40,182 nucleotides of DNA from Bacteroidota bacterium (GTDB lineage Bacteria; Bacteroidota; Bacteroidia; B-17B0; Aurantibacillaceae). The position numbers and the translations under genes were made by a program. The stretch spans positions 1-40,182 of the forward strand of contig JAOQAF010000085.1 in NCBI GenBank assembly GCA_025963735.1. Reading direction: 5' to 3'. The notes under the pieces are model-generated. The model was not told the origin of the DNA and did not search any database. It worked only from the letters and a program-made list of their open reading frames with translations. Positions within the stretch are counted from its first letter, which is position 1, and each line of letters begins with the position of its first letter. Below, one piece after another: positions 17,744 through 39,225 of this stretch.

Positions 17744-20700
17744 GTGAGAGCAAGCGGACTGATAAATTTTGTTCTGGTTACCAGTGCCACGGCCTGTTTA
17801 ATGGGGGTGGTTACCAAAACAAAAGATTCACAGCAAGAGGATGTGTTTGCGGCAAGCCGCAATCAGTGGTCTATGCCCCTTGACAGTCCTATTACAGAGC
17901 CATTGCCTTTCGATTTTAAAGATAATAACGGTAAACCGCCTCAGTTGGATCCTAAATCTAAACTTTATCTTGAAAACCCTTCCAATGTAAAAACAGATGT
18001 TGAGTATAATCCCAAGACAGGAAATTACGATGTAAAGCAAAAGATTGGCGATGACATTGATTATCGTCCTGAAACATACATGAACATGAAGGAGTACAAA
18101 GACTACATGTATAAAAAGTCTATGCGCGAATACTGGCGCTCACGTGTGGCCGCTGATGATTTGAACAATAAGCCGCGCAAAAGTATGGTTCCAAAACTTC
18201 AGGTAAACAGTGAGTTATTCGATCGCATCTTTGGAGGAAATACTGTAGACATTAAACCAACCGGCACGGCCGAACTTATCTTTGGTTTGAACCGCAATAA
18301 AAACTTTAATCCTGCCATTCCACAGAAACAACAGAAGATTACCAATTTCGATTTTAACATGCGTATTCAGTTAAATCTTATTGGAAAGATTGGTGATAAA
18401 TTAAAAGTAACAACCAATTATAATACAGAAGCTTCTTTTGATTGGGAGAATCAGGTAAAGCTTGATTACACAGGATATGAAGATGAGATCATTAAAAAAA
18501 TTGAAGCAGGTAACGTAACGCTTCCTTTACAAAGTTCTTTAATCAGCGGAAGTCAAACCCTGTTTGGCTTAAAAACGCAGTTGCAGTTTGGTAAATTAAT
18601 GATGACCACCGTTTTCTCGCAACAGAAAGGTAAGAAACAGGAAGTTACCGTTCAGGGCGGCGCGCAAACGCAACAGTTCAGTGTAAACGCCGATAATTAT
18701 GAAGCTAACCGTCACTATTTCTTAGGTCATTATTTTCGTGATAATTATGATGGATGGATGAGCACGCTTCCTGTGATTAATACGCCCATTGTAGTTACAA
18801 AAGTAGAAGTTTACATTTTAAATATTAACGGAAACGCCGAGCAAACACGTAACGTTGTGGCCTTTGAAGATCTGGGAGAGGATTCATCACATGTATTTCC
18901 CGGGTTGCAACTGGGTGGCGGGGTAGCTCCATCAGGTTACTCCATTAAGGATAGCGCGGGAGTGTTCCCTCATAATGGCGCCAACAGTTTATATTACTTA
19001 ATGGCAAATCCGGTAAATGGTGTTCTGGCATCACGCTCATTTACGGCTGCCTCTTCTTTACTGGCCAGTACTGCCCTTGCAACCAATGCTAATAACTCGG
19101 GAGGAAACTACATGGATCCTTCGCGTGATTATAACGTAATACAAAACGCACGTAAACTAAATTCTTCAGAATTCTTTTTTAACCCACGCACCGGATTCAT
19201 ATCACTTAATCAACAAATAAGTAACGAGCAGGCCGTTGCGGTTTCCTATCAATACACGTACGGAGGAAGAACCTATCAGGTAGGGGAGTTCAGCGACCAG
19301 GTTCCTGACAATACAAAATTACTGATCTGTAAATTATTAAAAACAGTTTCGGTGAGCGTAAAACATCCAATGTGGAAGTTAATGATGAAAAACGTTTATT
19401 CTTTGGGAGCTTATAATTTAAATGCGCAGGATTTTAAACTGGATATTTTTTATAACAATATTGAAACAGGTGTAGATGTGCCTTATCTTCCTTATGGAAG
19501 TATTAACGGACAGCAATTGATTCGTGTTATTGGTTGCGACAGATTAAGTTCCAATGGTGATAAAATTCCGGATGGTGTTTTTGATTTTATAAAAGATTAT
19601 ACGATCCTTCCAAACAATGGCCGCGTCTATCTGCCAACCATAGAGCCTTTCGGACGTAGTCTTGCCGCTAAATTCAGCACAAATGATTTTCCTGGTGCCA
19701 ACAAATATGTTTTTAATGAGTTGTATGATTCAACAAAAACTGCCGCAACATTCATTACAGAAAAAAACAGATATAAAATTAAAGGAAGTTATAAGTCTGC
19801 TTCGGGCTCTGAAATTGCATTGAACGCTTTAAATATTCCGCAGGGCGCGGTAATGGTGACTGCTAACGGGGTGGCTCTTGCCGAAAACACAGATTACACG
19901 GTTGATTATACATTGGGTCGCGTAAAAATTATTAATGAAGGAATCCTGAATTCAGGGGCGCAGATTAAAGTATCACTCGAAAGTAATTCACTGTTTAATG
20001 TTCAGCAGCGAAGTTTATGGGGCACACGTTTAGATTATAACGCAAGCCGTAATCTGAAGCTGGGCGGTACGTTCCTCCGTTTTAATGAAAGACCGGTTAC
20101 TCAAAAAGTAAGTTTTGGAGATGAACCCGTAAGTAACATTGTGGCCGGACTTGATTTCAGTTATAAAACCGACGCACCTTTTCTTACACGGTTATTAGAC
20201 AAACTTCCCTTATACAGCACTAAAGAAATGAGTACAATCAATTTCCGCGGAGAAGCAGCTAAATTATTTCCGGGCAACGCAAAAGCTATTGGTAAAAGTG
20301 GTAATTCATATATTGATGATTTTGAAGGATCTGTTTCGGTAATTGATATCCGTAGTCCGAACGCCTGGTTCCTTGCGAGTATCCCGCAGGGCCAGCCTGC
20401 TTTGTTTCCCGAGGCATCTCTTTCTGATTCAATAGCTACAGGTAAAAACAGGGCAAGGTTTAACTGGTATACGATCGATCCGATGTTTACACGATCACAG
20501 AGTGGTACTACTCCAAGCTATTACAATAATAATATTTTTTCAAATAATATGTGGCGCCAGGTTTTTGAAACCGAATTATTTCCGGGTAAAACACCTCCTA
20601 ACGGTCAGCAGGTTGTTCTGCCCGTTCTTGATCTTGGATTTTATCCTACAGAGCGCGGGCCTTACAATTATGATGTTAAGCCTTCATTGGTTTCGGCCGG

Positions 20701-23700
20701 TATAAATTCAGACGGAACATTAAAAAAACCTTCCGCGCGCTGGGGAGGAATAATGCGCAGATTAGAGACCAATGATTTTCAGGCGGCCAACGTGGAGTAT
20801 ATTCAGTTCTGGTTAATGGATCCGTTTAACGACGACTATAATTCAGATACTCATCCTGATTTTGATAAAAACAAACTTCCGAATGGTGATTTGTATATAA
20901 ATCTTGGAAATATTTCAGAGGATATTGTGAAAGACAGCCGCATGGTTTATGAAAACGGATTACCGGGAAAATCAAGCTTTTCAAATAATCTTCCGATAGA
21001 TTCCAATAACGTTGCTAATTATCCTATTATTCCAGCCACAGTTAACGCCTTCTCACAGGATAACAATGACAGGCCTTATCAGGATGTTGGTTTTGACGGT
21101 TTAGGGGATGATAACGAAAAATCACGTTTCAGAAGAGTTCTGGCCGATGTTCAGTCATCCGCCTACGATCAGAATGCGCCCGCGATTCAGGCTTTAATTA
21201 AGGATCCGTCAACAGATGATTATCATTTTTTCAGGGGTGACGATTGGGATGATAACCAGGTAAGAACATTGCAGCGTTACTCTAAATATAATAATCCGGA
21301 AGGCAATCAGCCAACCGAGCAACAATACAACAGCGCCAATCCTAAAGGAGGAAATTACAATACAAGTCACGCGAATACCCTCCCAAATATTGAAGATGTT
21401 AACCGCGATAATACTTTAAGTGAAACAGAAAATTATTATCAATATCATATTAAAATTTCACCATCAGATGTAAACCCAAGCTCGATAGGAACAAACTTTA
21501 TTGTGGATGCTTTTGATGGTACTGCAGATTTTGGAGGGATAAATAAAAAAGTGAAATGGTACCAGTTTAAAATTCCGATTTCACAATTTGAAAATGTTGT
21601 TGGTGGAATTGAAGGATTTAATTCTATCCGTTTTATGCGCGTTTACATGAAAGGTTTTGATCGCCCGGTATTATTAAGGATGGCGCGCTTTGAACTGGTG
21701 CGGAGTGACTGGAGACGTTATCAATTTGATCTTAAGCAGCCCGGCGAATACATTGCCAACGATGATAACTCCACTACGTTTGACGTATCAGCTGTAAGTT
21801 TACAGGAAAATGGAACCAAAACACCTGTTAATTATATTCTGCCGCCTGATATTCAGCAACAACAAAATGTGCAAACAACAAACCTTGTTTTACAAAATGA
21901 ACAAGCCTTGCAAATGCGCGCCTGTAATTTAAAGGATGGAGACAGCAGGGCAATTTTTAAAAATGTGGACCTTGACACGCGCATGTTTAACAACATCAAA
22001 ATGAACGTGCATGCCGAAAAGCTGAATAATATACCTTTGAATGACGGCGATCTAACTTTGTTTTTCAGGGTTGGAACTGATTACAATAATAATTTTTATG
22101 AATACGAAGTACCTTTAAAGCTAACTCCTAAAGGCGTGTATGATCCTAACAGTACCGATGCCCGCTATGCAGTGTGGCCACAGGATAATGAAATTAATTT
22201 TAAGTTCTCTGATGTTACAAAATTGCGTACTCTGCGAAGCGAGAAGTATGGTTATTATACTAGCCTTAACCAGTTAAGCACACCTTTTTCTTATGACTTC
22301 GGTGGTTATAAAATTACAATTGTAGGTAATCCAAACTTAGGTACTATTAAAAGTGTAATGGTTGGTGTTCGCAATCCTAAAGGAAATGATAATCAGGCGC
22401 ATTGCGTTGAGCTTTGGATAAATGAACTACGGTTAACTGAATTTAATAACCAGGGAGGCTGGGCTACTACGGGGCAGGTTCAGGCAAAGCTGGCCGATCT
22501 GGGAATGGTGTCTTTAGCCGGTACGTATAGCACACCGTTCTGGGGAAGCGTGGAACAAAAAATAAATGACCGGCGAAAAGAAACCAATTTCAATTGGGAT
22601 ATGAGCACAACACTTAATGCCGGAAAATTTTTCCCGAATAACTGGAAGGTGACTCTGCCGGTCTTTTATAATTTCGGACAAACAAAAGTAATTCCTTTGT
22701 TTAACCCGCTCGATCCTGATATCCGTATGAGCGACTTTGATGCCAATAATCAAATTCCACAAGACACAAAAGAAAGGATAAAAAATCAGGTCATAGATTT
22801 CACTGAGCGCAAAGGATTTAATTTAACCAACGTTCGTATTGATGGATTAAAGCGTAAAGAAGCCAAGCCAATGCCGTGGGACGTTAGAAATTTTTCTGCA
22901 ACCTATGCTTACACAGAAATCAATAAGCACAGTATGAGTATTGAATCGAACACGAACAGGCAATACCGCGCTAATATACTATATGCCTTCACCATTCAAA
23001 ATCCGCTTACTATTAAGCCTTTCAGTAAAATGAAGATGTTTGAAAACAAATGGTTTACTCTTATTAAAGATTTTAATTTGCAATTGGTTCCAAACAGCTT
23101 TGGTTCATCCATAGATGTTACCAGAACCTTCTCTGCCCTTAAAAACCGCGACATTACCAGTTTTTATACAACCGCAAGCGACTTTGCAAACCCGGTTCTT
23201 TACAATAAAAACTTTGTTATCGGTCGCTCGTATAACCTGCGCTGGGATCTCAGCAAGTCAGTTAAATTTGATTATTCAGCCAATAATGACGGGCGAATCA
23301 TTGAACCTTTAGGCGAGGTGGGGCCAAAACAAAAAGTAAACAGGGATTCCATTTTAAGCACATTCCTTAATGGCAAAAAAGCCCACGGTCAAAATGATTA
23401 TGGTAAGTATGGCGAAAATACAGTATACCGGCAGGCCATGAACCTGAATGTTACAGTGCCTATTCAAAAAATACCTATTTTGGATTTTGCTACACTAACG
23501 TATCGCTTCGGTGGAACTTATACCTGGAACCGCCGGCCATTTGCAGCCTCCGATAGTATTGGAAATACCATTCAGAATACAAACACGCATAATTACACTG
23601 CCAATTTTTCAATGAATACCCTGTATAATAAGATTCCTTATTTTAAAAGACTGAATACAAATCAACCAAGGCCGGGGAGTTCCAAAAATTCTACGCCCGG

Positions 23701-25225
23701 TAAATCTCCTGTGTTACCTGCCAACGGAAAAAAACCTTTAACCGACAGTACAAATCCTAAAAAGAATGAAAGTATAAAAGACGCTCTTGAATTTTTTGCG
23801 CGTGGAATCATGATGATTAAAAACATTTCCTTCTCTTACCAGCTTTCAGGAGGACAAGGTTTGCCGAACTTTAAGCCAAACTCGCAATACATGGGAATGG
23901 ATTTCCATAATCAGCAGGCTCCCGGCTTTTTATTTACAACAGGATTGTACGATGCGCGCATCCGCGAAAGAAGCGCTGATAATGGTTGGCTGGCAACTAA
24001 CGCCCTTCAGACTACACCATATACGCAGGTAACCAGTAAAGATTTTTCCTACCGGTCAAGCATTGAACCTCATGGTAGTTTGAAAATAGAATTAAACGGA
24101 AATTATAAACTGGCGAAAAACGTAAGTGAATATCTTATTTATGATACAACAAGCGGACGGCCTACGTATAAAGGTTTTGATTTTCATGTAAGTAAAAGCG
24201 AAACCGGAAGTTTTAATATTTCCACCTTTACATTTTTCCGTTCTTTCCGCGACGCTTCTAAAGGTGTGAATTCGCGTTTGTTCAACGAATTTCTGGCCGA
24301 ACGGAGAAATGTTGCTAATGAGTTAGCCGATGCAAACCATTATTCGAGCGGTGTTGTTACTTACACTAATCTTAAAGGAGAAAGGGAAAGTTATATTGAC
24401 GGCTATCAGGATAATCAACAGGATGTTTTGTTCGGCGCTTTTTATAAAACATACACCGGACGTAAAATAAAAAATTATAGTTCTGTTAATCCATTTCCAA
24501 CCATTCCTTTACCTAACTGGACGATCAGCTGGGATGGTTTAGGTAAGATCCCTATATTTAAAAAAACCTTTCGAAGTATTACTGTAAGGCATGGGTATCG
24601 CAGCGGATTAAATGTAAATGGCTTTTCAAACAACCTGTTATTTAACCCGGATGGATCTACACAAAATTACAGAGCGCCGGTGGCCGTTAATTCAGGATCA
24701 GTGGCTCTTAATTCAAACTTTGTCCCTTATTACAACATTAACGCCATTACAATAACAGAAGCTTTTGCCCCCCTGATAAAATTTGACTTTCAGTTTGTGA
24801 AGCAGGGGTGGACGGGTAATCTGGAAACAAAACGTGATAAAACCACGAGTTTAAACATTACAGGTCCGCAGATAATTGAAACTAAAGGTCAGGAATACAT
24901 TGTTGGTTTAGGATATATGTATCCAAAATTAAGGTTCAAAAAAGTTCAGATTCAAGGCAAGGTGCTTGAAAGTAATTTAACCGTAAAAGTGGATCTTAGT
25001 TTCAGAAATAACCTAACAGTTATCAGAAGGGTAACAGATGGTTTAAGTATTCCCACGGGTGGTACAAACATTATTACGCTCCGTTCTTCAGCTGATTATG
25101 CTTTAACGCCAAATATTAATCTGCGTTTATTTTACGATTGGATCCGAACCAAACCGCAAACTTCCGCTTCATTCCCAACTTCTAATGCAACGGGTGGATT
25201 CAGTTTGCGCATTAATTTCCAGTAA
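17744..25225 (+). CDS. sprA: Type IX secretion system outer-membrane translocon SprA (Sov)
   Basis: A protein of 2493 residues, within the usual size of SprA/Sov, the giant 36-strand beta-barrel through which T9SS cargo crosses the outer membrane. It starts at GTG 17744, six bases after ruvA, with an N-terminal hydrophobic stretch (LINFVLVTSATACLMGVV). Recognisable segments include FDFNMRIQLNLIGKIGDKLK, LPLQSSLISGSQTLFGLK, PMWKLMMKNVYSLGAYNLN and NSYIDDFEGSVSVIDIRSPNAW. Other recognisable pieces are AYTEINKHSMSIESN and many alternating strands with a C-terminal GGFSLRINFQ ending in an aromatic/amide pair. A Pro/Ser/Lys-rich linker lies near residues 1980–2010. Its presence implies T9SS-exported cargo; no T9SS cargo C-terminal domain was noticed in this window. 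Confidence 0.97.
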   Translation: MRASGLINFVLVTSATACLMGVVTKTKDSQQEDVFAASRNQWSMPLDSPITEPLPFDFKDNNGKPPQLDPKSKLYLENPSNVKTDVEYNPKTGNYDVKQKIGDDIDYRPETYMNMKEYKDYMYKKSMREYWRSRVAADDLNNKPRKSMVPKLQVNSELFDRIFGGNTVDIKPTGTAELIFGLNRNKNFNPAIPQKQQKITNFDFNMRIQLNLIGKIGDKLKVTTNYNTEASFDWENQVKLDYTGYEDEIIKKIEAGNVTLPLQSSLISGSQTLFGLKTQLQFGKLMMTTVFSQQKGKKQEVTVQGGAQTQQFSVNADNYEANRHYFLGHYFRDNYDGWMSTLPVINTPIVVTKVEVYILNINGNAEQTRNVVAFEDLGEDSSHVFPGLQLGGGVAPSGYSIKDSAGVFPHNGANSLYYLMANPVNGVLASRSFTAASSLLASTALATNANNSGGNYMDPSRDYNVIQNARKLNSSEFFFNPRTGFISLNQQISNEQAVAVSYQYTYGGRTYQVGEFSDQVPDNTKLLICKLLKTVSVSVKHPMWKLMMKNVYSLGAYNLNAQDFKLDIFYNNIETGVDVPYLPYGSINGQQLIRVIGCDRLSSNGDKIPDGVFDFIKDYTILPNNGRVYLPTIEPFGRSLAAKFSTNDFPGANKYVFNELYDSTKTAATFITEKNRYKIKGSYKSASGSEIALNALNIPQGAVMVTANGVALAENTDYTVDYTLGRVKIINEGILNSGAQIKVSLESNSLFNVQQRSLWGTRLDYNASRNLKLGGTFLRFNERPVTQKVSFGDEPVSNIVAGLDFSYKTDAPFLTRLLDKLPLYSTKEMSTINFRGEAAKLFPGNAKAIGKSGNSYIDDFEGSVSVIDIRSPNAWFLASIPQGQPALFPEASLSDSIATGKNRARFNWYTIDPMFTRSQSGTTPSYYNNNIFSNNMWRQVFETELFPGKTPPNGQQVVLPVLDLGFYPTERGPYNYDVKPSLVSAGINSDGTLKKPSARWGGIMRRLETNDFQAANVEYIQFWLMDPFNDDYNSDTHPDFDKNKLPNGDLYINLGNISEDIVKDSRMVYENGLPGKSSFSNNLPIDSNNVANYPIIPATVNAFSQDNNDRPYQDVGFDGLGDDNEKSRFRRVLADVQSSAYDQNAPAIQALIKDPSTDDYHFFRGDDWDDNQVRTLQRYSKYNNPEGNQPTEQQYNSANPKGGNYNTSHANTLPNIEDVNRDNTLSETENYYQYHIKISPSDVNPSSIGTNFIVDAFDGTADFGGINKKVKWYQFKIPISQFENVVGGIEGFNSIRFMRVYMKGFDRPVLLRMARFELVRSDWRRYQFDLKQPGEYIANDDNSTTFDVSAVSLQENGTKTPVNYILPPDIQQQQNVQTTNLVLQNEQALQMRACNLKDGDSRAIFKNVDLDTRMFNNIKMNVHAEKLNNIPLNDGDLTLFFRVGTDYNNNFYEYEVPLKLTPKGVYDPNSTDARYAVWPQDNEINFKFSDVTKLRTLRSEKYGYYTSLNQLSTPFSYDFGGYKITIVGNPNLGTIKSVMVGVRNPKGNDNQAHCVELWINELRLTEFNNQGGWATTGQVQAKLADLGMVSLAGTYSTPFWGSVEQKINDRRKETNFNWDMSTTLNAGKFFPNNWKVTLPVFYNFGQTKVIPLFNPLDPDIRMSDFDANNQIPQDTKERIKNQVIDFTERKGFNLTNVRIDGLKRKEAKPMPWDVRNFSATYAYTEINKHSMSIESNTNRQYRANILYAFTIQNPLTIKPFSKMKMFENKWFTLIKDFNLQLVPNSFGSSIDVTRTFSALKNRDITSFYTTASDFANPVLYNKNFVIGRSYNLRWDLSKSVKFDYSANNDGRIIEPLGEVGPKQKVNRDSILSTFLNGKKAHGQNDYGKYGENTVYRQAMNLNVTVPIQKIPILDFATLTYRFGGTYTWNRRPFAASDSIGNTIQNTNTHNYTANFSMNTLYNKIPYFKRLNTNQPRPGSSKNSTPGKSPVLPANGKKPLTDSTNPKKNESIKDALEFFARGIMMIKNISFSYQLSGGQGLPNFKPNSQYMGMDFHNQQAPGFLFTTGLYDARIRERSADNGWLATNALQTTPYTQVTSKDFSYRSSIEPHGSLKIELNGNYKLAKNVSEYLIYDTTSGRPTYKGFDFHVSKSETGSFNISTFTFFRSFRDASKGVNSRLFNEFLAERRNVANELADANHYSSGVVTYTNLKGERESYIDGYQDNQQDVLFGAFYKTYTGRKIKNYSSVNPFPTIPLPNWTISWDGLGKIPIFKKTFRSITVRHGYRSGLNVNGFSNNLLFNPDGSTQNYRAPVAVNSGSVALNSNFVPYYNINAITITEAFAPLIKFDFQFVKQGWTGNLETKRDKTTSLNITGPQIIETKGQEYIVGLGYMYPKLRFKKVQIQGKVLESNLTVKVDLSFRNNLTVIRRVTDGLSIPTGGTNIITLRSSADYALTPNINLRLFYDWIRTKPQTSASFPTSNATGGFSLRINFQ

Positions 25226-28042: not shown

Positions 28043-29851
28043 TTACGTTGAAAGTACATTGAGTTCTTTTTTGGAAATACTTGCTTTAATATCTTCGAGA
28101 GTTCCTTTAGGGATGGAATTGATAAGTTTACGTGTGTAATCAGTTTTTGGATTATTGTAAATTTCATCTGCATCGCCCATTTCTTCTATCTTTCCTTTTT
28201 GCATTACCACCATCCGGTCGCTCATGAACTTTACCACACTTAAATCGTGACTTATAAAAATGTAAGTAAACTTAAATTCTTTTTTAAGATCATTTAAAAG
28301 ATTGAGTACCTGAGCCTGCACGCTAACATCCAGAGCGCTCACGCTTTCATCGCAAATGATAAATTCAGGATTTAAAGCAAGGGCGCGGGCTATACATATT
28401 CGCTGACGTTGCCCGCCACTAAACTCATGAGGGTAACGGCTAAAAAATTTATCTTCCATCCCCACTTTTTTCAACAGATCATACACTTTATCCCGTCGCT
28501 CTTTAGCGGTTGGAAGTATGTTGTGAACTTTCATGGGCTCCATAATAGAGTCGCCAATAGTTATGCGGGGATTCAAAGAAGAGTAGGGGTCCTGAAAGAT
28601 AATTTGCATGTGACGACGACGTTCTCTGAAATCACTTTCTTTCATGCGAAGAAGTTCTTCGCGCTTATAAAATATTTTACCATCATGCGCTTCACTGAGT
28701 TTTAAAATAGAACGTCCCAGGGTGGTTTTACCGCAGCCGCTTTCGCCCACCAAACCTAGCGTTTCACCTTCGTACACATCAAAGGTTACGTCGTCAACCG
28801 CTTTGGTATAGGATAAAACCTTTCCAAAAATTGTTTTCTCGGCAGGAAACCAGGTTTTAAGATTTTGAATCTCAAGAATTTTATCGCGTTTATATAATTC
28901 TATATGCTGTTGTTTTCTTTCTTCAACTGTTATGGCAAGACTATTAACCGCGGCCGAAACATTTTTATTTAATTCAACAATTTCGCCATCATCACCACGA
29001 CGCATAAAATCACTTACAACAGGTAACCGGACTAATCTTTTATCAAGAGGGGGACGGCATGCCAGCAAACTGCGGGTATAAGGATGCTGCGGATTTGAAA
29101 ATATTTGAAGAACAGGACCTTGCTCCACAATTTTACCTTTGTACATCACAACTACTTTATCGGCAAGCTCGGCAATAACACCCAGGTCGTGGGTTATAAA
29201 TAAAATGCCCATGTTATGCTGCTGCTGCAGCTTTTGCATCAGGTCGAGAATTGTTTTTTGAACGGTAACATCCAGCGCTGTAGTTGGCTCATCCGCAATA
29301 AGAATGTTTGGATTACAACTCATGGCCATGGCAATCATTACCCTTTGTTTTTGTCCGCCTGATAATTGATGCGGATATCTGTCAAGCATTAACTCAGGAG
29401 TGGGCAGCTGAACTTCGTTAAATAAATGAATGGCCTTTGCCCTCGCTTCTTTTTTCGAAATTTTTTGGTGGATTAAAATGCTCTCCATTACCTGGTTTCC
29501 GCAGGTTATAACCGGATTAAGCGAAGTCATTGGTTCCTGGAAGATCATCGCAATTTCATTACCTCTGTAATTGCGCATCTCATCATTTTTGGTCTTTACC
29601 AGATCAACGGTTTTGCCGGCTTTTGTATGGTAAATAATTTCTCCGTGCGTTATTTTTCCGGGAGGATTTGGAATAAGTTGCATGATGGAAAGGGAAGTAA
29701 CGGACTTGCCCGAACCGCTTTCGCCAACAATACCGATGGTTTCGCCTTTATATAATGTAAAGGAAATATCATTAACCGCCTTAATGTATTCATCTTCGGT
29801 TTTAAATTGAGTAACTAAATTTTTTACTTCCAGTAGAGGACGCTTTTCCAT
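28043..29851 (-). CDS. Fused two-domain peptide-type ABC transporter ATPase (DppD–DppF / YejF-like)
   Basis: A protein of 602 residues carrying two complete ATPase domains. Domain 1 has Walker A GESGSGKS (43–50), signature LSGGQ (163–167) and Walker B ILIADEP (183–189). Domain 2 has GESGCGKT (369–376), FSGGQ (477–481) and IICDES (498–503). HPYTRSLL near 257 is the oligopeptide-transporter tail of the first unit. The D-E-S in place of D-E-P leaves the catalytic glutamate intact. It should power import of di- or oligopeptides or related solutes. No permease or binding protein lies in the window, so partners must be encoded elsewhere. Confidence 0.95.
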   Translation of the reverse strand: MEKRPLLEVKNLVTQFKTEDEYIKAVNDISFTLYKGETIGIVGESGSGKSVTSLSIMQLIPNPPGKITHGEIIYHTKAGKTVDLVKTKNDEMRNYRGNEIAMIFQEPMTSLNPVITCGNQVMESILIHQKISKKEARAKAIHLFNEVQLPTPELMLDRYPHQLSGGQKQRVMIAMAMSCNPNILIADEPTTALDVTVQKTILDLMQKLQQQHNMGILFITHDLGVIAELADKVVVMYKGKIVEQGPVLQIFSNPQHPYTRSLLACRPPLDKRLVRLPVVSDFMRRGDDGEIVELNKNVSAAVNSLAITVEERKQQHIELYKRDKILEIQNLKTWFPAEKTIFGKVLSYTKAVDDVTFDVYEGETLGLVGESGCGKTTLGRSILKLSEAHDGKIFYKREELLRMKESDFRERRRHMQIIFQDPYSSLNPRITIGDSIMEPMKVHNILPTAKERRDKVYDLLKKVGMEDKFFSRYPHEFSGGQRQRICIARALALNPEFIICDESVSALDVSVQAQVLNLLNDLKKEFKFTYIFISHDLSVVKFMSDRMVVMQKGKIEEMGDADEIYNNPKTDYTRKLINSIPKGTLEDIKASISKKELNVLST

Positions 29852-33022: not shown

Positions 33023-33030
33023 TATATTTG
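33023..33030 (+). promoter_or_regulatory. Putative -7 promoter box for the large exported protein
   Basis: TATATTTG is an exact match to the Bacteroidota TAnnTTTG element and ends 16 bases before the ATG at 33047, a spacing that fits a short leader. A -33 TTG element is not evident. A short inverted repeat (ATAGC GAGG CTAT) lies just upstream at about 33007–33019 and could be a protein-binding site or chance. Confidence 0.4.
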
Positions 33031-33046
33031 GTACAATTATTTTAAT

Positions 33047-36000
33047 ATGCGCTTTAAATTCACTACTCCCTTAATACTCCTGTTCCTTCTGCTTTCCTGT
33101 TCGGTTTTACGCGCGCAAAAAATAAATCAGTTTGCCAACGACACTTCGAAATTTGTGAAAGATCTTGGTGCTTATTTTTATGACAATACGGTTAATAAAG
33201 AAGAAGCCGCCGTTTACATGAAAAATTTTGACCGGCTTTGGAAAGAAAATGTAATAGCCGGGTATTATAAAGAAATTGCCATAAAAACCGCCAATGCAAT
33301 GCTCGCCAGGCGAATGAAGCCATATCCTTTTTTCTACGGGTATTTTAATACGCTTATAAATAGCATCGTGAGTAAAAAATCTTCAGATGAATTTGAGAAC
33401 TGGCAGGAATGTGTGGATAAAATAATGAAAGGAAAATCAAATCGTGGCATTCAGGAGTTTTTTGAAATGAGTGAGAACATCTTTAAGAACAATGTGTTTT
33501 ACAAAACTCCTTCTTATAACTATTATAGCCTCGAACCTAATTTTAAATTTGAATACGATTCAATTCCAAAAGTGGTTTTTAATAACATTACACTGGTAGG
33601 GGTTAACCCACGCGGAGACAGCATGGCTATTGAAGCAACAAGCGGTATTTTTTATCCCACCAATGGAAAATTTGCAGGTAAAGGAGGAAAAGTTAACTGG
33701 ACGAGGGCCGGCCTTGAAGATAACGTGTACGCCACTATAAAACGTTATACCATTGATTGTAAGACAGGAAATTATGGCACCGACAGCGCTACATTCATAG
33801 GTAAACAATTTTTTGATAAACCACAGATAGGCAGGGTTACAGACCGGATCATTACCGAAAACCAGGAAAAAACTTATCCGCGGTTTGATTCTTACAGTAA
33901 ACGACTTGTAGTAAAAAATATTTACCCGGATGTGGATTATGACGGAGGCTTTGGTATGCGGGGGGCTAAGTTCGTTGGATCGGGCTCAAGTGCCAATCCT
34001 GCTAAAATTGTATTCAAAAGAAATAACGTCAGGTTTATGGAGGTAAGCGCACGGGCGTTTGGTATGAGTAAGGAAAAAATAGTGGCCAATCCCGGAGCAA
34101 TAAAAATATTTTTAAATAAAGACACGATTTATCATCAGGGATTAGGTTTTACGTATCAGGTAGAAAAAAGACTGGTAACCATTTTACGGGGCGAAGATGG
34201 TTTGCAAAAAGTGCCTTTTACCAACTCTTATCATAAGTACGATATGTACTTCGAACAAATGGTATGGCAGATCGATGAACCCATTATCGCTTTTAATTTT
34301 CTTCCCAATAATTTTCAGGGCGAAGCTTTTTTTGAATCCGCCGATTTTTTTACACAGCAGAAAATAGATGTTATACGAGGTAACGAGAGTGTAAGTCCTA
34401 TTGCTAAAATGATAGAGTATTATACTATCTCAAACAAATTGCAAACCTTTAGCGTAATTGATTTTGCCAAGTATATTAAATTTCTGGCTAACGACTTAAG
34501 GCCAATCATCTTTAAAATGGCTATTTACGGACTTATTTATTTTGATCCGGAAACAGACATGATTACCGTTAAGCAGAGGTTGTTTGATTATGCCGAGAAC
34601 ATAAAACATAAACATGATTATGATATTATTACACTTCACTCGGTTACGGGACAGCTTGTAGATCCTGTGACTGGCAAAAAGGTGGATAATGCCACCATGA
34701 ACCTTTTAAATTATGACATAACGGTTCACGGGGTTAACCAGGTATTATTAAGTGATACGCAAAAAGTTTTTTTGTTCCCGAAATATGGCGATATAAAACT
34801 TAAGAAAAACCGTGAATTAGAATTTAATGGTACCGTAGCTTCAGGTAAGTTTGAGTTTGTAGGAAAGGATTTTGTTTTTGACTACGATCAGTTTAAAATT
34901 AAAATGAAAACCGTTGATTCCATAAAAATTTATGTGGAAGCCAATGAACCCGACATTAACGGAAATGTACCTTTTAAGAAAGTTCAGACCCTCATTGAAA
35001 ATGTAAACGGCGAATTGAGAATTGACGCGCCTAAAAATAAAAGCGGATGGGGCAAAGCGCCAACATTCCCGAGCTTTCAAAGCTTTAAGGAAAGTTATGC
35101 TTTTTATGATAAGCGACAAATATTTAAGGGCGCTTATGGCAGAGATAAATTTTATTTTAAGCTTGATCCCTTTAGCATTGACAGTCTTGATAATTTTAGA
35201 AATGAACGCCTGCGTTTTGACGGCACGTTTGCCTCGGCGGGTATTTTTCCTGATTTCAGAGAGAAGCTGACTTTACAAAAAGATTATTCGCTTGGATTTA
35301 TTCGTCAGACCCCTCCAGGTGGATTTCCGGTATACGGCGGCAAAGCAAATTTTAACCAGGAAATCCGCTTAAGTAATAAAGGATTAAGAGGCGGTGGCGA
35401 CCTTGACTTCAGTGCGAGTCATTCAGTGGTGCCTGACCTAATTTTCTTTCCCGACAGTGCCAACGGGGTAGCTAAAACCTTTGATGTTAAAGAAGGGGAT
35501 AATCCGGAATTTCCAACAGCACACGGTGATACGGTGCGGTTACATTTTATGCCATACAAGGAAGTACTTCAGGCACATGATCTAAAAACACCTTTTGTTT
35601 CCTATAAAGAAAAAGTAAAGTTTAAGGGCAGATACGATCTCACAAATAAAGAACTTACAGGAAGCGGAAGAGTTGATTTTGACAAAGCTGATCTTGTTTC
35701 CGGCAAAATGTTGTTTGTTAAACGCCGTTTCTTCAGCGATACATGTAACTTTCATTTAAAAGCGTTTGATGAGGAAGGATTTACTTTTAGCACCGTGAAT
35801 GTTAATGCAAAAATAGATTTTGATAAACGCGAAGGTGAGTTTGTTACCAACGGAAAAGGATCTTATGTAAAATTTGATAAGAACCAGTACATCGCATATA
35901 TGGATCGTTTTAAATGGTACATGGACCAGGAAGATATTGAACTTGGAGATACACAAAAGAAAATGGATGCCAATCCCGATGAGGTTGGCGTAGATCTGGA

Positions 36001-37558
36001 AGGACCGCAATTTATCAGTGTTCACCCAAGACAGGACTCTTTGAGGTTTTTTGCACCGGGAGCGAAATACAATTTAAGAAAATACATTATCAACTGTAAG
36101 AACGTCCCTTATATTGATGTTGCTGATGCGCGTGTATTTCCAAAGAATGGCGATGTGACCTTGTTTAAAAATGCGGTGATGGATACTTTAAGACAATCAA
36201 CAATACTGGCGAATACCGTAACCAAATTTCACAACATCCGTAATGCCACCACTAATATTTATGGCAGAAGGAGCTACCTTGCGAGTGGTGAATATCAGTA
36301 CCTGGATGAAAACGATAAACCTTACCTCATTAAATTTAATACAATAAAGCCCGATACGGGAGGGCAAACAATTTCTGAGGGTGAAATACCGGAAAAGGAA
36401 AATTTTAAATTTAACGATTACTTTAGTTTTGCCGGTAAAGTATATTTACAGGCTACCCAGCAGTATCTTACTTTTGATGGAGGCACTAAAATTGTACATA
36501 ACTGTTCGCGCATTGGTAAATCTTACCTTAAGTTTAAAGGAGAAATCAATCCTAAGGAAATTCTTATCCCAATTCCTAAAAAAGCGGTTGACATGAACAA
36601 TGCTGCTGTTGGTACAGGTTTGTTTTATAATCAGGATACAAACATGGTGTATTCAACATTTTTATCCCTGCAGGGCGCAAGAAGTTCCAAAGATGTTATT
36701 GAAGCCGATGGCCTTCTTACTTATGACAAAGAGAACGGGCTGTATGAGATTTCAAATAAGGAAAAACTTTCTGAAATGAGTTTGCCGGGTAATTATGTAA
36801 GTTTAAATACTAATAATTGCCTGGTTAATTCTGAAGGAAGTTATAATATTACAAATGATCTTGGTCAGGTAAAATTAAAATGTGTTGGAAACGCACAACA
36901 CAGTTCAGTTAATGACAGTATTAATTTTAATTTAATGATGGTGGTTGATTTCTTTTTTGAAAGCAGCGCTATTAAAAAAATGGCAAAAGATTTTGAATTG
37001 TATCTTGGAAGCTTAAGCCCAACGCCGTTTGAAGGTGATTTGTTTAATCACGGAACTATTGAACTACTCGGAAAAGAACGCGGTGACAGGGCTTTATCAG
37101 AATTAAGTTTGTACGGCAACTACAAAAAATTTCCTGATGAACTTGAAAAAAACCTGGTTCTTAATGATGTTAAGCTCAGTTATAACAAGCAGCTAAAGGC
37201 CTATTTGTCTGAAGGTATGATTGGGGTTGGAAACATTCAGAAAAATGAAATTTTCAGATATGTAAAAGGCAATGTGCAAATAACTAAAAAACGCGGAAAA
37301 GATGTTCTTGATATTTACCTGGAAGCTGATGCAAATACGTGGTATTATTTCAATTATTTTAACGGAACAATGCTTGCCGTGAGCAGCAACAACCAGTTTA
37401 ATACCGAGATAAAAGAAATGAAAAGCAAGAACAAGAAAATGAATATAGAAAAGGGTCCTTCTTATCGGTTTGATATTGGCAATGTTAGAAAAAAGGATGA
37501 CTTTCTTAGAAAAATCAAACAGTTCGGTAGCTTTAAAGAAGAGGATAAAGATGAATAA
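33047..37558 (+). CDS. Very large exported protein of unknown function (1503 aa)
   Basis: I do not recognise a named family. The N-terminus MRFKFTTPLILLFLLLSC then SVLRAQ is a signal peptide. Either signal peptidase I cuts after the AQ, or LLSC acts as an imperfect lipobox. Residues 25–150 look helical (YMKNFDRLWKENVIAGYY). The rest is mostly beta-strand-like with many charged, aromatic strands, for example SGIFYPTNGKFAGKGGKVNW near 200–220, and LRFDGTFASAGIFPDFREK. Two regions around 850–960 and 1190–1290 look like repeated strand blocks. There is no type IX cargo domain at the C-terminus, which ends in lysine- and glutamate-rich sequence. A large periplasmic or outer-membrane-associated scaffold is the best guess. 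Similar giants are, to my memory, conserved hypotheticals in this phylum. Confidence 0.85.
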   Translation: MRFKFTTPLILLFLLLSCSVLRAQKINQFANDTSKFVKDLGAYFYDNTVNKEEAAVYMKNFDRLWKENVIAGYYKEIAIKTANAMLARRMKPYPFFYGYFNTLINSIVSKKSSDEFENWQECVDKIMKGKSNRGIQEFFEMSENIFKNNVFYKTPSYNYYSLEPNFKFEYDSIPKVVFNNITLVGVNPRGDSMAIEATSGIFYPTNGKFAGKGGKVNWTRAGLEDNVYATIKRYTIDCKTGNYGTDSATFIGKQFFDKPQIGRVTDRIITENQEKTYPRFDSYSKRLVVKNIYPDVDYDGGFGMRGAKFVGSGSSANPAKIVFKRNNVRFMEVSARAFGMSKEKIVANPGAIKIFLNKDTIYHQGLGFTYQVEKRLVTILRGEDGLQKVPFTNSYHKYDMYFEQMVWQIDEPIIAFNFLPNNFQGEAFFESADFFTQQKIDVIRGNESVSPIAKMIEYYTISNKLQTFSVIDFAKYIKFLANDLRPIIFKMAIYGLIYFDPETDMITVKQRLFDYAENIKHKHDYDIITLHSVTGQLVDPVTGKKVDNATMNLLNYDITVHGVNQVLLSDTQKVFLFPKYGDIKLKKNRELEFNGTVASGKFEFVGKDFVFDYDQFKIKMKTVDSIKIYVEANEPDINGNVPFKKVQTLIENVNGELRIDAPKNKSGWGKAPTFPSFQSFKESYAFYDKRQIFKGAYGRDKFYFKLDPFSIDSLDNFRNERLRFDGTFASAGIFPDFREKLTLQKDYSLGFIRQTPPGGFPVYGGKANFNQEIRLSNKGLRGGGDLDFSASHSVVPDLIFFPDSANGVAKTFDVKEGDNPEFPTAHGDTVRLHFMPYKEVLQAHDLKTPFVSYKEKVKFKGRYDLTNKELTGSGRVDFDKADLVSGKMLFVKRRFFSDTCNFHLKAFDEEGFTFSTVNVNAKIDFDKREGEFVTNGKGSYVKFDKNQYIAYMDRFKWYMDQEDIELGDTQKKMDANPDEVGVDLEGPQFISVHPRQDSLRFFAPGAKYNLRKYIINCKNVPYIDVADARVFPKNGDVTLFKNAVMDTLRQSTILANTVTKFHNIRNATTNIYGRRSYLASGEYQYLDENDKPYLIKFNTIKPDTGGQTISEGEIPEKENFKFNDYFSFAGKVYLQATQQYLTFDGGTKIVHNCSRIGKSYLKFKGEINPKEILIPIPKKAVDMNNAAVGTGLFYNQDTNMVYSTFLSLQGARSSKDVIEADGLLTYDKENGLYEISNKEKLSEMSLPGNYVSLNTNNCLVNSEGSYNITNDLGQVKLKCVGNAQHSSVNDSINFNLMMVVDFFFESSAIKKMAKDFELYLGSLSPTPFEGDLFNHGTIELLGKERGDRALSELSLYGNYKKFPDELEKNLVLNDVKLSYNKQLKAYLSEGMIGVGNIQKNEIFRYVKGNVQITKKRGKDVLDIYLEADANTWYYFNYFNGTMLAVSSNNQFNTEIKEMKSKNKKMNIEKGPSYRFDIGNVRKKDDFLRKIKQFGSFKEEDKDE

Positions 37559-37563
37559 TAATC

Positions 37564-38283
37564 TTAATAAGCAGTTTTCATTTCAACGTATTTCAAAAAC
37601 TCCAGTCGCGTAGCCTCTTCGTTAAACTTACCGCCATAAAAAGAAGTTACAGTAGCAGAATTATGATCTTGCACCCCGCGCGATGACACGCACATATGCT
37701 TGGCGTCAATTAAAACAGCAACATCATCCGTTTTAAGAATTAACTGTAACTCCTTTGCTATTTGAATAGTTAAACGTTCCTGCACCTGAGGACGTTTAGC
37801 GAAATATTGAACAATGCGGTTCAATTTAGAAAGACCTATTACCTGACCACTTGAAATATAAGCTACATGCGCCTTGCCGAAGATGGGCACGAAATGATGT
37901 TCGCAGTTACTGTAAAAGGTAATGTCTTTTTCAACCAGCATTTGGTTGTACTTGTACTTATTTTCAAAAAGAGCGACTTCGGGTTTATTGGCCGGATTTA
38001 GACCGCTGAAAATTTCTTTCACGTACATTTTAGCCACCCTTTCCGGTGTACCTTTCAGGCTGTCGTCTTTAAGGTCAAGTCCAAGTGTTTCCATGATCTC
38101 ACGAAAATGCGATCCTATTTTTTTAATTTTTTCATCATCGCTAAGCTCAAAGGCGTTCGCTTTCATAGGAGTATCTTCGGTTGTAAATAAATGTTCATTT
38201 CCAATCTCTTCATTACCCAGGTCGCTCAATGAAAGTGTGTTTTCTTTAAGCAGGGAATTCAACAAAGTTTCTTTCGGTTTCAT
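37564..38283 (-). CDS. folE: GTP cyclohydrolase I
   Basis: A protein of 239 residues. The core begins FELSDDEKIKKIGSHFREIMETLGLD. DDSLKGTPERVAKMYVKEIF is the family block. YSNCEHHFVPIFGKAHVAYI gives zinc ligands C127 and H130, and DAKHMCVSSRGVQD gives C198. LSKLNRIVQYFAKRPQVQERLT is the other signature. It converts GTP to 7,8-dihydroneopterin triphosphate, the entry point to folate, tetrahydrobiopterin and queuosine. The ATG at 38283 lies 38 bases inside the upstream PTPS gene. The N-terminal 45 residues resemble those of other Bacteroidota FolE proteins, so I keep this start. Its 3' end faces the giant exported protein gene with a five-base gap. Confidence 0.97.
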   Translation of the reverse strand: MKPKETLLNSLLKENTLSLSDLGNEEIGNEHLFTTEDTPMKANAFELSDDEKIKKIGSHFREIMETLGLDLKDDSLKGTPERVAKMYVKEIFSGLNPANKPEVALFENKYKYNQMLVEKDITFYSNCEHHFVPIFGKAHVAYISSGQVIGLSKLNRIVQYFAKRPQVQERLTIQIAKELQLILKTDDVAVLIDAKHMCVSSRGVQDHNSATVTSFYGGKFNEEATRLEFLKYVEMKTAY

Positions 38284-38659
38284 AAAGTATTATTTTAAGG
38301 TCGTAACGTTTATCAAGTTTGTTACTGAGCAATTGATGGATAACAATGGCAATGTTTTCCGCAGTTGGATTAAGATCTTTAAACTCAAGTGTATCAAGAT
38401 TAAGATTTTTGTGATCGAATCTTTCTATTATTTCTTTTTTTACAATGTCGCCCAGTAATTTTAAATCAATTACATATCCTGTTTTAGGATCAATTTCTCC
38501 GGTAACTTTAACTACCAGTTCATAGTTATGCCCGTGAAAGTTGGGGTAATTGCATTTACCAAATACAGAGGCGTTCTCCTCCGCGTTTAAAAGATTGCTG
38601 TGCAGGCGGTGCGCGGCATTAAAATGTTCTTTCCTATATACGGCAATTCTTTTATTCAT
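38246..38659 (-). CDS. 6-pyruvoyl-tetrahydropterin synthase family protein, copy A
   Basis: A protein of 137 residues. HFNAAHRL gives the first zinc histidine. GKCNYPNFHGHNYEL gives the catalytic cysteine and two more zinc histidines in the spacing C-x5-HGH. RFDHKNLNLD carries the Asp-His catalytic pair and LYETERNFVEF the glutamate that binds the pterin. The C-x5-HGH spacing is that of eukaryotic PTPS rather than QueD, which has C-x3-HGH. It acts on the FolE product, giving 6-pyruvoyl- or 6-carboxy-tetrahydropterin. It overlaps folE by 38 bases, so the two are coupled and act in succession. Biopterin or queuosine precursor synthesis are both possible. Confidence 0.9.
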   Translation of the reverse strand: MNKRIAVYRKEHFNAAHRLHSNLLNAEENASVFGKCNYPNFHGHNYELVVKVTGEIDPKTGYVIDLKLLGDIVKKEIIERFDHKNLNLDTLEFKDLNPTAENIAIVIHQLLSNKLDKRYDLKIILYETERNFVEFPA

Positions 38660-38817: not shown

Positions 38818-39225
38818 TTAACCGAAATATTCAACGTAAATGCGAGGGGTTTCATAGAGTTTAACGCAATGCAATTGAACGTTCATAGGTAAATGAGGGG
38901 CAATCTGATCCCAAATGGCAACGGTAAGGTTTTCTGTACTTGCAAGCTTTCCGGTAAGAAAGTCAACATCCATATTCAGGTTTTTATGATCAAGTTTTTC
39001 GCAAACCTCATCCTGCAGTATTTTACTTAAAATTTTTGCGTCCATTAAAAAGCCTGTCTCGGGGTTAACTTCACCTTTAATGGTTACGAGTAATTCATAA
39101 TTATGCCCATGCCAGTTGCTATTGGCGCATTTACCAAATACTTCCTCGTTTTTTTTATCCGACCAGTCGGGGTTATACAATTTGTGCGCGGCGTTAAAAT
39201 GCTCGTGGCGCGTTAAATAAATCAT
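38818..39225 (-). CDS. 6-pyruvoyl-tetrahydropterin synthase family protein, copy B
   Basis: A protein of 135 residues, paralogous to copy A. All key positions are kept: HFNAAHKL, GKCANSNWHGHNYEL (again C-x5-HGH), KLDHKNLNMD and LYETPRIYVEY. Both copies therefore look active, and neither is a pseudogene. It is separated from copy A by 158 bases that show no gene or clear signal. The start ATG at 39225 faces the mqnB gene across about 80 bases. Divergence between the copies is more than expected for a recent duplication, so they may make different products, such as one for biopterin and one for queuosine. That split is inference. Confidence 0.9.
   Translation of the reverse strand: MIYLTRHEHFNAAHKLYNPDWSDKKNEEVFGKCANSNWHGHNYELLVTIKGEVNPETGFLMDAKILSKILQDEVCEKLDHKNLNMDVDFLTGKLASTENLTVAIWDQIAPHLPMNVQLHCVKLYETPRIYVEYFG

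Follow-up and report, generated by a model that had tools for sequence, protein, structure and literature searches.

The gene and its product

The DNA analysed here, called the window throughout, comprises positions 1 to 40,182 of the forward strand of contig JAOQAF010000085.1 (assembly GCA_025963735.1), from a Bacteroidota bacterium of the family Aurantibacillaceae. At 33047–37558 it carries a gene for a 1503-amino-acid (aa) exported protein without a named family, which we tentatively read as a lipid-handling protein of the periplasm. A first-pass annotation had described the gene as intact and as the window's second largest after sprA, and both statements were borne out: the open reading frame (ORF) runs from an ATG at 33047 to 37558 with zero internal stops and ranks second in length among the listed ORFs of the window, behind SprA (17744–25225, 2493 aa, TIGR04189 E 0). 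The observation of a large, exported, familyless protein at this position is thus confirmed. The gene is present in a single copy in its own genome, and its product shares 63–89% identity with same-genus copies; in the four pairs computed, nonsynonymous divergence (dN) was 0.07–0.18 and synonymous sites were saturated (dS 5.3 in one pair, not computable in three). The features recognised are given below, all on the plus strand, with pLDDT denoting the predicted local distance difference test score.

33023–33030, +, candidate -7 promoter box TATATTTG, Bacteroidota-type, of a motif at chance frequency in the window
33047–37558, +, gene of unnamed family for the 1503-aa exported protein, ORF intact from ATG at 33047 to the end at 37558
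33047–33115, +, signal peptide, residues 1–23, predicted cleavage A23/Q24 by the Q-rule (sequence pattern)
33116–33490, +, predicted helical N-terminal domain, residues 24–148 (AlphaFold, block pLDDT 65–91)
33563–34918, +, beta module 1, residues 173–624, interrupted by the winged helix (internal repeat map and model)
33878–34297, +, predicted Lpt-type jellyroll, residues 278–417 (fold superposition, Foldseek)
34391–34606, +, predicted winged-helix domain, residues 449–520 (fold and profile)
35309–35545, +, local repeat unit, residues 755–833, resembling 845–922 (hhalign, 63.9 bits)
35510–36349, +, beta module 2, residues 822–1101, repeating module 1 but lacking the winged helix (repeat map)
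36821–37528, +, predicted C-terminal strands with helices, residues 1259–1494 (second model, block pLDDT mostly 60–87)

The export signal that had been noted earlier was upheld by the orthologs, in alignments from which near-duplicate and partial orthologs were excluded. A simple pattern, a hydrophobic N-terminus followed by [small]-x-[small]-Gln, was found in 29 of the 30 aligned sequences; the thirtieth (L037) escapes the pattern but has MQAQ on inspection by eye. Conservation of the Gln at the cleavage site across all 30 fits the Q-rule of Bacteroidetes (PMC5837995). A lipoprotein was considered and rejected, as Cys18 is unconserved in the ortholog alignment and the A-Q cleavage site is conserved (by eye). 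The candidate promoter box ends 16 bases upstream of the ATG; it was read against TAnnTTTG, which we take to be the Bacteroidota -7 consensus. The window holds 60 copies of this motif where 60.07 would be expected by chance; of the promoter claimed earlier, the box is thus present, but its function is only plausible.

Searches with the 1503-aa protein returned 0 Pfam families and 0 PDB sequences at E up to 10, and the sole NCBIfam match (E 0.082) scored 12.4 bits against a cut-off of 211.8. The more sensitive profile search that had been recommended, with a 28-row family profile against PDB sequences, gave a best E of 0.49, and the 28 alignment members produced only weak Pfam matches, none better than E 0.025, of which Fe_dep_repress and GntR are named as helix-turn-helix families. 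The claim that the protein has no recognised family therefore stands on Pfam, NCBIfam and PDB sequences, and no clear match by sequence to LptD, AsmA-like or characterised surface proteins emerged. No description of the family was found in the open-licence PubMed Central (PMC) literature for the terms tried. A protein of the cell surface or the extracellular space, with a structural or carbohydrate-binding role, would agree with a signal peptide and a beta-rich chain; it is nevertheless very improbable, since neither a type IX secretion system (T9SS) sorting domain nor a carbohydrate-binding family is among the Pfam and NCBIfam matches of weight in the 1503-aa protein, and since the gene is conserved over as many families as described below.

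Predicted architecture

Two AlphaFold models were built from 11 sequences each, one of residues 22–860 and one of residues 590–1503. They agree with the helical N-terminus and beta-rich body that had been proposed from the sequence. In the first model, the helical N-terminus has a block pLDDT of 65–91, residues ~150–261 one of 75–91 and residues ~262–381 one of 63–83, and the winged helix lies mostly at 71–82. Fold comparison took the helical N-terminus as part of the whole model, so that a family missing from the fold lists may still match it.

Fold comparison places residues 278–417 among the jellyroll proteins of the lipopolysaccharide (LPS) transport machinery. They superpose on LptC (6mjp_C) with Z 11.9 and a root-mean-square deviation (rmsd) of 2.9 over 124 residues, and also on LptD (8h1r_A, Z 10.4), LptA (2r1a_E, Z 10.2) and LptH (4uu4, Z 9.3); the top eight rows for the first model are all LptC, LptD, LptA or LptH (Z 9.3–11.9 over 111–124 residues). 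Foldseek gave LptC and LptH rows at probability 0.97–1.00 and E 0.04–0.2 (best LptC, E 0.043, probability 1.00), together with further LptC, LptH and LptDE rows and many MarR-type winged helices. The model thus supports a periplasmic beta-jellyroll of LptA/LptC type for residues 278–417, and a winged helix for residues 449–520. For the second model Foldseek returned no useful matches, and in fold comparison LptD or LptA occupied five of the six best rows at Z 4.7–5.5, which is suggestive only. The Lpt jellyroll proteins (LptC, LptA/LptH and the periplasmic domain of LptD) are likewise exported; the protein described here differs from them in its 1503 aa, its two modules, the inserted winged helix and the helical N-terminal domain, and in that sequence homology was not detected.

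The winged helix and an internal duplication are features that the first-pass annotation had missed. The former superposes on OhrR (2pex_A) with Z 9.0 and rmsd 2.6 over 67 residues. A profile of 30 winged-helix segments retrieved 33 rows from PDB sequences, mostly winged-helix proteins by name, with an Lmo0651 protein (E 1.7e-4), TFE (transcription factor E, 0.0058) and SmtB (0.016) as the best rows; Pfam Fe_dep_repress matches the segment in 5/30 members (best E 1.3e-4), whereas no Pfam family was found on the window's own segment. The winged helices of MarR/OhrR and DtxR regulators are therefore alike in fold and weakly similar in sequence, but here the domain sits inside an exported protein, which seems unusual, and the signal peptide makes DNA binding unlikely.

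The duplication was recognised by comparing windows of the family profile with one another. Residues 173–253 match 822–905 (29.8 bits), 332–435 match 882–990 (40.4) and 546–624 match 1003–1101 (42.7), against a maximum of 24.6 bits in 406 reversed comparisons. The three pairs are collinear, and the winged helix occupies the gap of the first copy between the second and third pairs, which supports, at the level of sequence, a duplicated beta module of which one copy carries an insert. In the second copy the first two pairs share 24 residues, which makes 173–253/822–905 the least certain of the three. From the repeat similarity, module 2 may also fold as a jellyroll. The local repeat 755–833/845–922 likewise exceeds the reversed maximum. 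One out-of-order pair, between residues 491–511 of the winged helix and 1218–1238 of the C-terminal third (28.7 bits), is above the reversed null as well, and the duplication gives no explanation for it.

Distribution among genomes

An initial search found a match in 41/41 genomes from 17 genera, some copies being divided across contig ends; the gene's own genome is counted here and in the samples that follow. In a sample of the class, 324 of 395 genomes matched a 30-row profile at E 0.001 or better, as did 274 of the 339 genomes with completeness of 90% or more and contamination of 5% or less. These counts are of profile matches, which need not all be full length or single copy; most carriers show one match, and the second matches read were pieces of one gene. 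Carriers fall into 159 of 196 genera and 68 family labels (a hand count). The situation in samples of the phylum, which lean to complete and clean genomes, was different: 10/247 complete, clean genomes matched and, in a larger sample of mostly complete genomes, 13/296, two of the 13 being short stretches of other proteins. Two short out-of-class matches were read: one in a 239-aa ORF resembling a DtxR-type regulator by eye agrees with the winged helix; one in a 396-aa ORF with the look of a metallo-beta-lactamase fold by eye was judged chance. The 296 genomes showed no full-length match beyond the class, and a scan of viral contigs with one pattern from the ortholog alignment gave 192 pattern matches and no relative.

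The gene is therefore widespread within one class, in which several families with many complete genomes lack it, and the suggestion that it might be a core envelope component of the phylum was too wide; the spread anticipated earlier holds broadly within the class and is low in the phylum samples. What remains is an exported protein of some 1500 residues found across much of a class without a Pfam or NCBIfam model of weight. Its absence from several families that dominate complete genomes could account for its having been overlooked.

Gene neighbourhood

In the window the gene is divergent from purL and is followed downstream by folE on the opposite strand. In distant families, parts of the order folP, DUF1599-like gene (a label we assume for this neighbour), BT_3928, ABC (ATP-binding cassette) permease, tpiA, prmA, the gene itself, plsY and clpS recur, with neighbour names taken from NCBIfam on loci L037 and L033. 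In 35 of 36 loci counted (L042 was left out), prmA lies immediately upstream in 14, plsY immediately downstream in seven, and both in five. As plsY encodes the glycerol-3-phosphate acyltransferase of phospholipid synthesis, its adjacency was counted in support of a lipid-handling function. A Mantel test of the protein against prmA over 14 loci gave rho 0.45, with 10 of 2000 permutations as high.

Loci of non-carriers were compared through prmA, in 17 of 18 genomes (G047 has no prmA over the cut-off). There prmA is followed by plsY and an M48 protease in two, by clpS in three and, named by eye, by recJ-like genes in two and mpl-like genes in two. No relic of the gene was found at these 17 loci with an unfiltered profile run over ORFs of at least 80 aa; the best rows, other ORFs at E 0.0026 (9.2 bits) and 0.011, were judged chance.

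Beyond plsY, two loci carry a protein of 1900–2100 aa (L033, 1003–6726; L044, 807–7103) with weak similarity to CHU_0125/PorE, a match that was tested for L033 only and lies below both cut-offs.

Co-occurrence with envelope systems

Genes for known envelope systems were counted in 80 hand-picked genomes. The carriers among them number 56 of the 324, in most cases with a single genome per family; the other 24 are non-carriers from the phylum and class samples (20 of the 71 class non-carriers were listed). G081, G292, G328 and G368, which belong to a carriers' genus, are very small or are incomplete, were left out.

SprA is present in 56/56 carriers, and the window itself carries sprA. Near the gene, some relatives encode the protein of weak CHU_0125/PorE similarity and an M48 protease that is a relative of BepA/LoiP by a match below cut-off. 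Together these findings could mean that the protein assists outer-membrane biogenesis or type IX secretion as an accessory factor or scaffold; the jellyrolls would then act as a rigid spacer and the winged helix would contact other proteins, and no lipid would be carried. We regard such a role as rather unlikely, though it is the alternative to be taken most seriously. SprA also occurs in 20/24 non-carriers, which shows that the gene is not needed for T9SS and weakens a T9SS-specific role, and in the pairs compared by eye sprA and the gene are on different contigs or distant, except in G000 (the genome of the window) and G229.

Another possible explanation places the protein within the LPS transport machinery, as an extra bridge segment resembling LptA or LptC, for example. 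The jellyroll match to LptC, LptA and LptD would be expected of such a segment, and OstA_2 (PF13100), which we take to be the LptA-like protein of Bacteroidota, gives no match in 3/56 carriers against 0/24 non-carriers. However, 53 of the 56 carriers have OstA_2 as a separate gene, usually in open frames of ~500–600 aa; the gene's own genome carries OstA_2 as well as two LptF/LptG genes, and non-carriers manage without the gene. We therefore consider this explanation improbable. A substitute for LptA was rejected on the same co-occurrence. The three carriers without an OstA_2 match (G296, G302 and G307) are at least 99% complete.

TamB was the first guess, from size and phylum. TamB/AsmA-like proteins are exported, beta-rich envelope proteins of ~1500 aa, and a divergent bridge of this type, with a repeating beta-groove (RBG) fold, would resemble the protein in size, export, beta-richness and location. 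The TamB model PF04357, however, finds two other genes of the same genome (L001/L002, at G000:C2 and G000:C189, in open frames of 1674 and 1496 aa) and misses the 1503-aa gene, which rules out TamB as its family, and TamB is present in 80/80 genomes. For the Lpt-like region Lpt proteins rank first and no AsmA-like RBG fold is listed; TamAB appears at Z 3.4 only in the second model, in which that half is poorly predicted. Such a bridge is, in our judgement, slightly less probable still than a segment of the LPS machinery.

TamB gene numbers nevertheless differ between the groups. Two TamB genes (counted at E below 1e-20, a chosen cut) occur in 17/24 non-carriers and 8/56 carriers (p 1.4e-6), in 7/8 non-carrier and 7/48 carrier families (p 1e-4; f15 and f22 were divided into carriers and non-carriers) and, among genomes of at least 4 Mb, in 11/13 non-carriers and 6/20 carriers (p 0.004). 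Passages of PMC12045153 describe TamB, TamB2 and five more AsmA-like proteins in Flavobacterium johnsoniae.

Proposed function

Our proposal, made with a confidence a little short of even, is that the gene encodes a soluble protein of the periplasm that handles lipids or glycolipids and consists of two tandem Lpt-type beta-jellyroll modules. The protein would be exported by Sec and, from the sequence pattern, cleaved before Gln24; the jellyroll interior would hold acyl chains and pass a lipid toward the outer membrane, either phospholipid or some glycolipid, whether distinct from LPS or carried in addition to it, and the winged helix in module 1 would dock the protein to an envelope partner, a role suggested by the fact that DNA binding outside the cytoplasm is unlikely. 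The export signal, the conservation and the overall architecture are established, and prediction supports the folds of one jellyroll and of the winged helix. We infer lipid binding, bridging, partners, substrate, docking and any relation to a second TamB; on the model, the protein may work like an Lpt jellyroll. Of the envelope-scaffold or lipid-handling role suggested earlier, export stands and a lipid-handling character is indicated by the predicted fold, but the fold speaks for one domain only.

Several observations weigh against this proposal. The prediction in overlapping segments that had been recommended earlier yielded the Lpt jellyroll and the winged helix in the first model, but both models have low mean pLDDT (58.7 for residues 22–860; 50.7, a poor value, for 590–1503), and residues 382–401, within the Lpt-like region, are near 40. 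Foldseek gave nothing at E 0.001 with either model, and the second model's Lpt rows cover residues ~593–908 and 1016–1162, which fit module 2 only loosely. A Pfam scan of 30 sub-sequences covering residues 270–435 listed five families, and the OstA_2, LptC and LptD_N models are not among them; hhalign against 22 OstA_2 proteins gave probabilities of 1–4%, which are not significant. The best OstA_2 segment is the region that superposes on LptC (27.6–28.2 bits against 16.6–18.2 reversed), but in two of the eight segments (430–540 and 980–1260) the reversed control was higher. The resemblance in fold to Lpt proteins may therefore be convergent, and homology is unproven. LptC and TamB bridges are membrane-anchored, whereas no anchor beyond the signal peptide was seen here by eye (no predictor was run). 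The surroundings of prmA and plsY include the unrelated housekeeping genes tpiA, folP and clpS, and none of the loci examined from the gene's own genus has them; the gene order seen in distant families could be a housekeeping cluster inherited from an ancestor and need not reflect shared function. The correlation with TamB is confounded by kinship and hand-picking and is a lead, and the genome of the window has two TamB genes, unlike 48/56 carriers.

Whatever the case, the partial Lpt fold raises the question of whether there is a further lipid route to the outer membrane of Bacteroidota besides Lpt and TamB-type bridges. A bolder reading, which we consider unlikely, is that the protein forms a third type of lipid conduit in the envelope, next to Lpt and AsmA/TamB: a tandem jellyroll in one soluble chain, with an internal winged-helix dock, that would be ancestral to much of the Bacteroidia and lost in several families in which a second TamB took over.

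Other features of the window

The folE gene (37564–38283) is adjoined by two adjacent paralogs of 6-pyruvoyl-tetrahydropterin synthase (PTPS; 38246–38659 and 38818–39225), and this pattern of folE with paired PTPS genes is kept in two close relatives (L026 and L028). The ORF at 28043–29851 encodes an ABC protein of 602 aa whose single chain holds two ATPase domains; it resembles GsiA/OppDF, at a score under the equivalog cut-off, and has a PrsW-like protease and a DedA-like protein in its vicinity.

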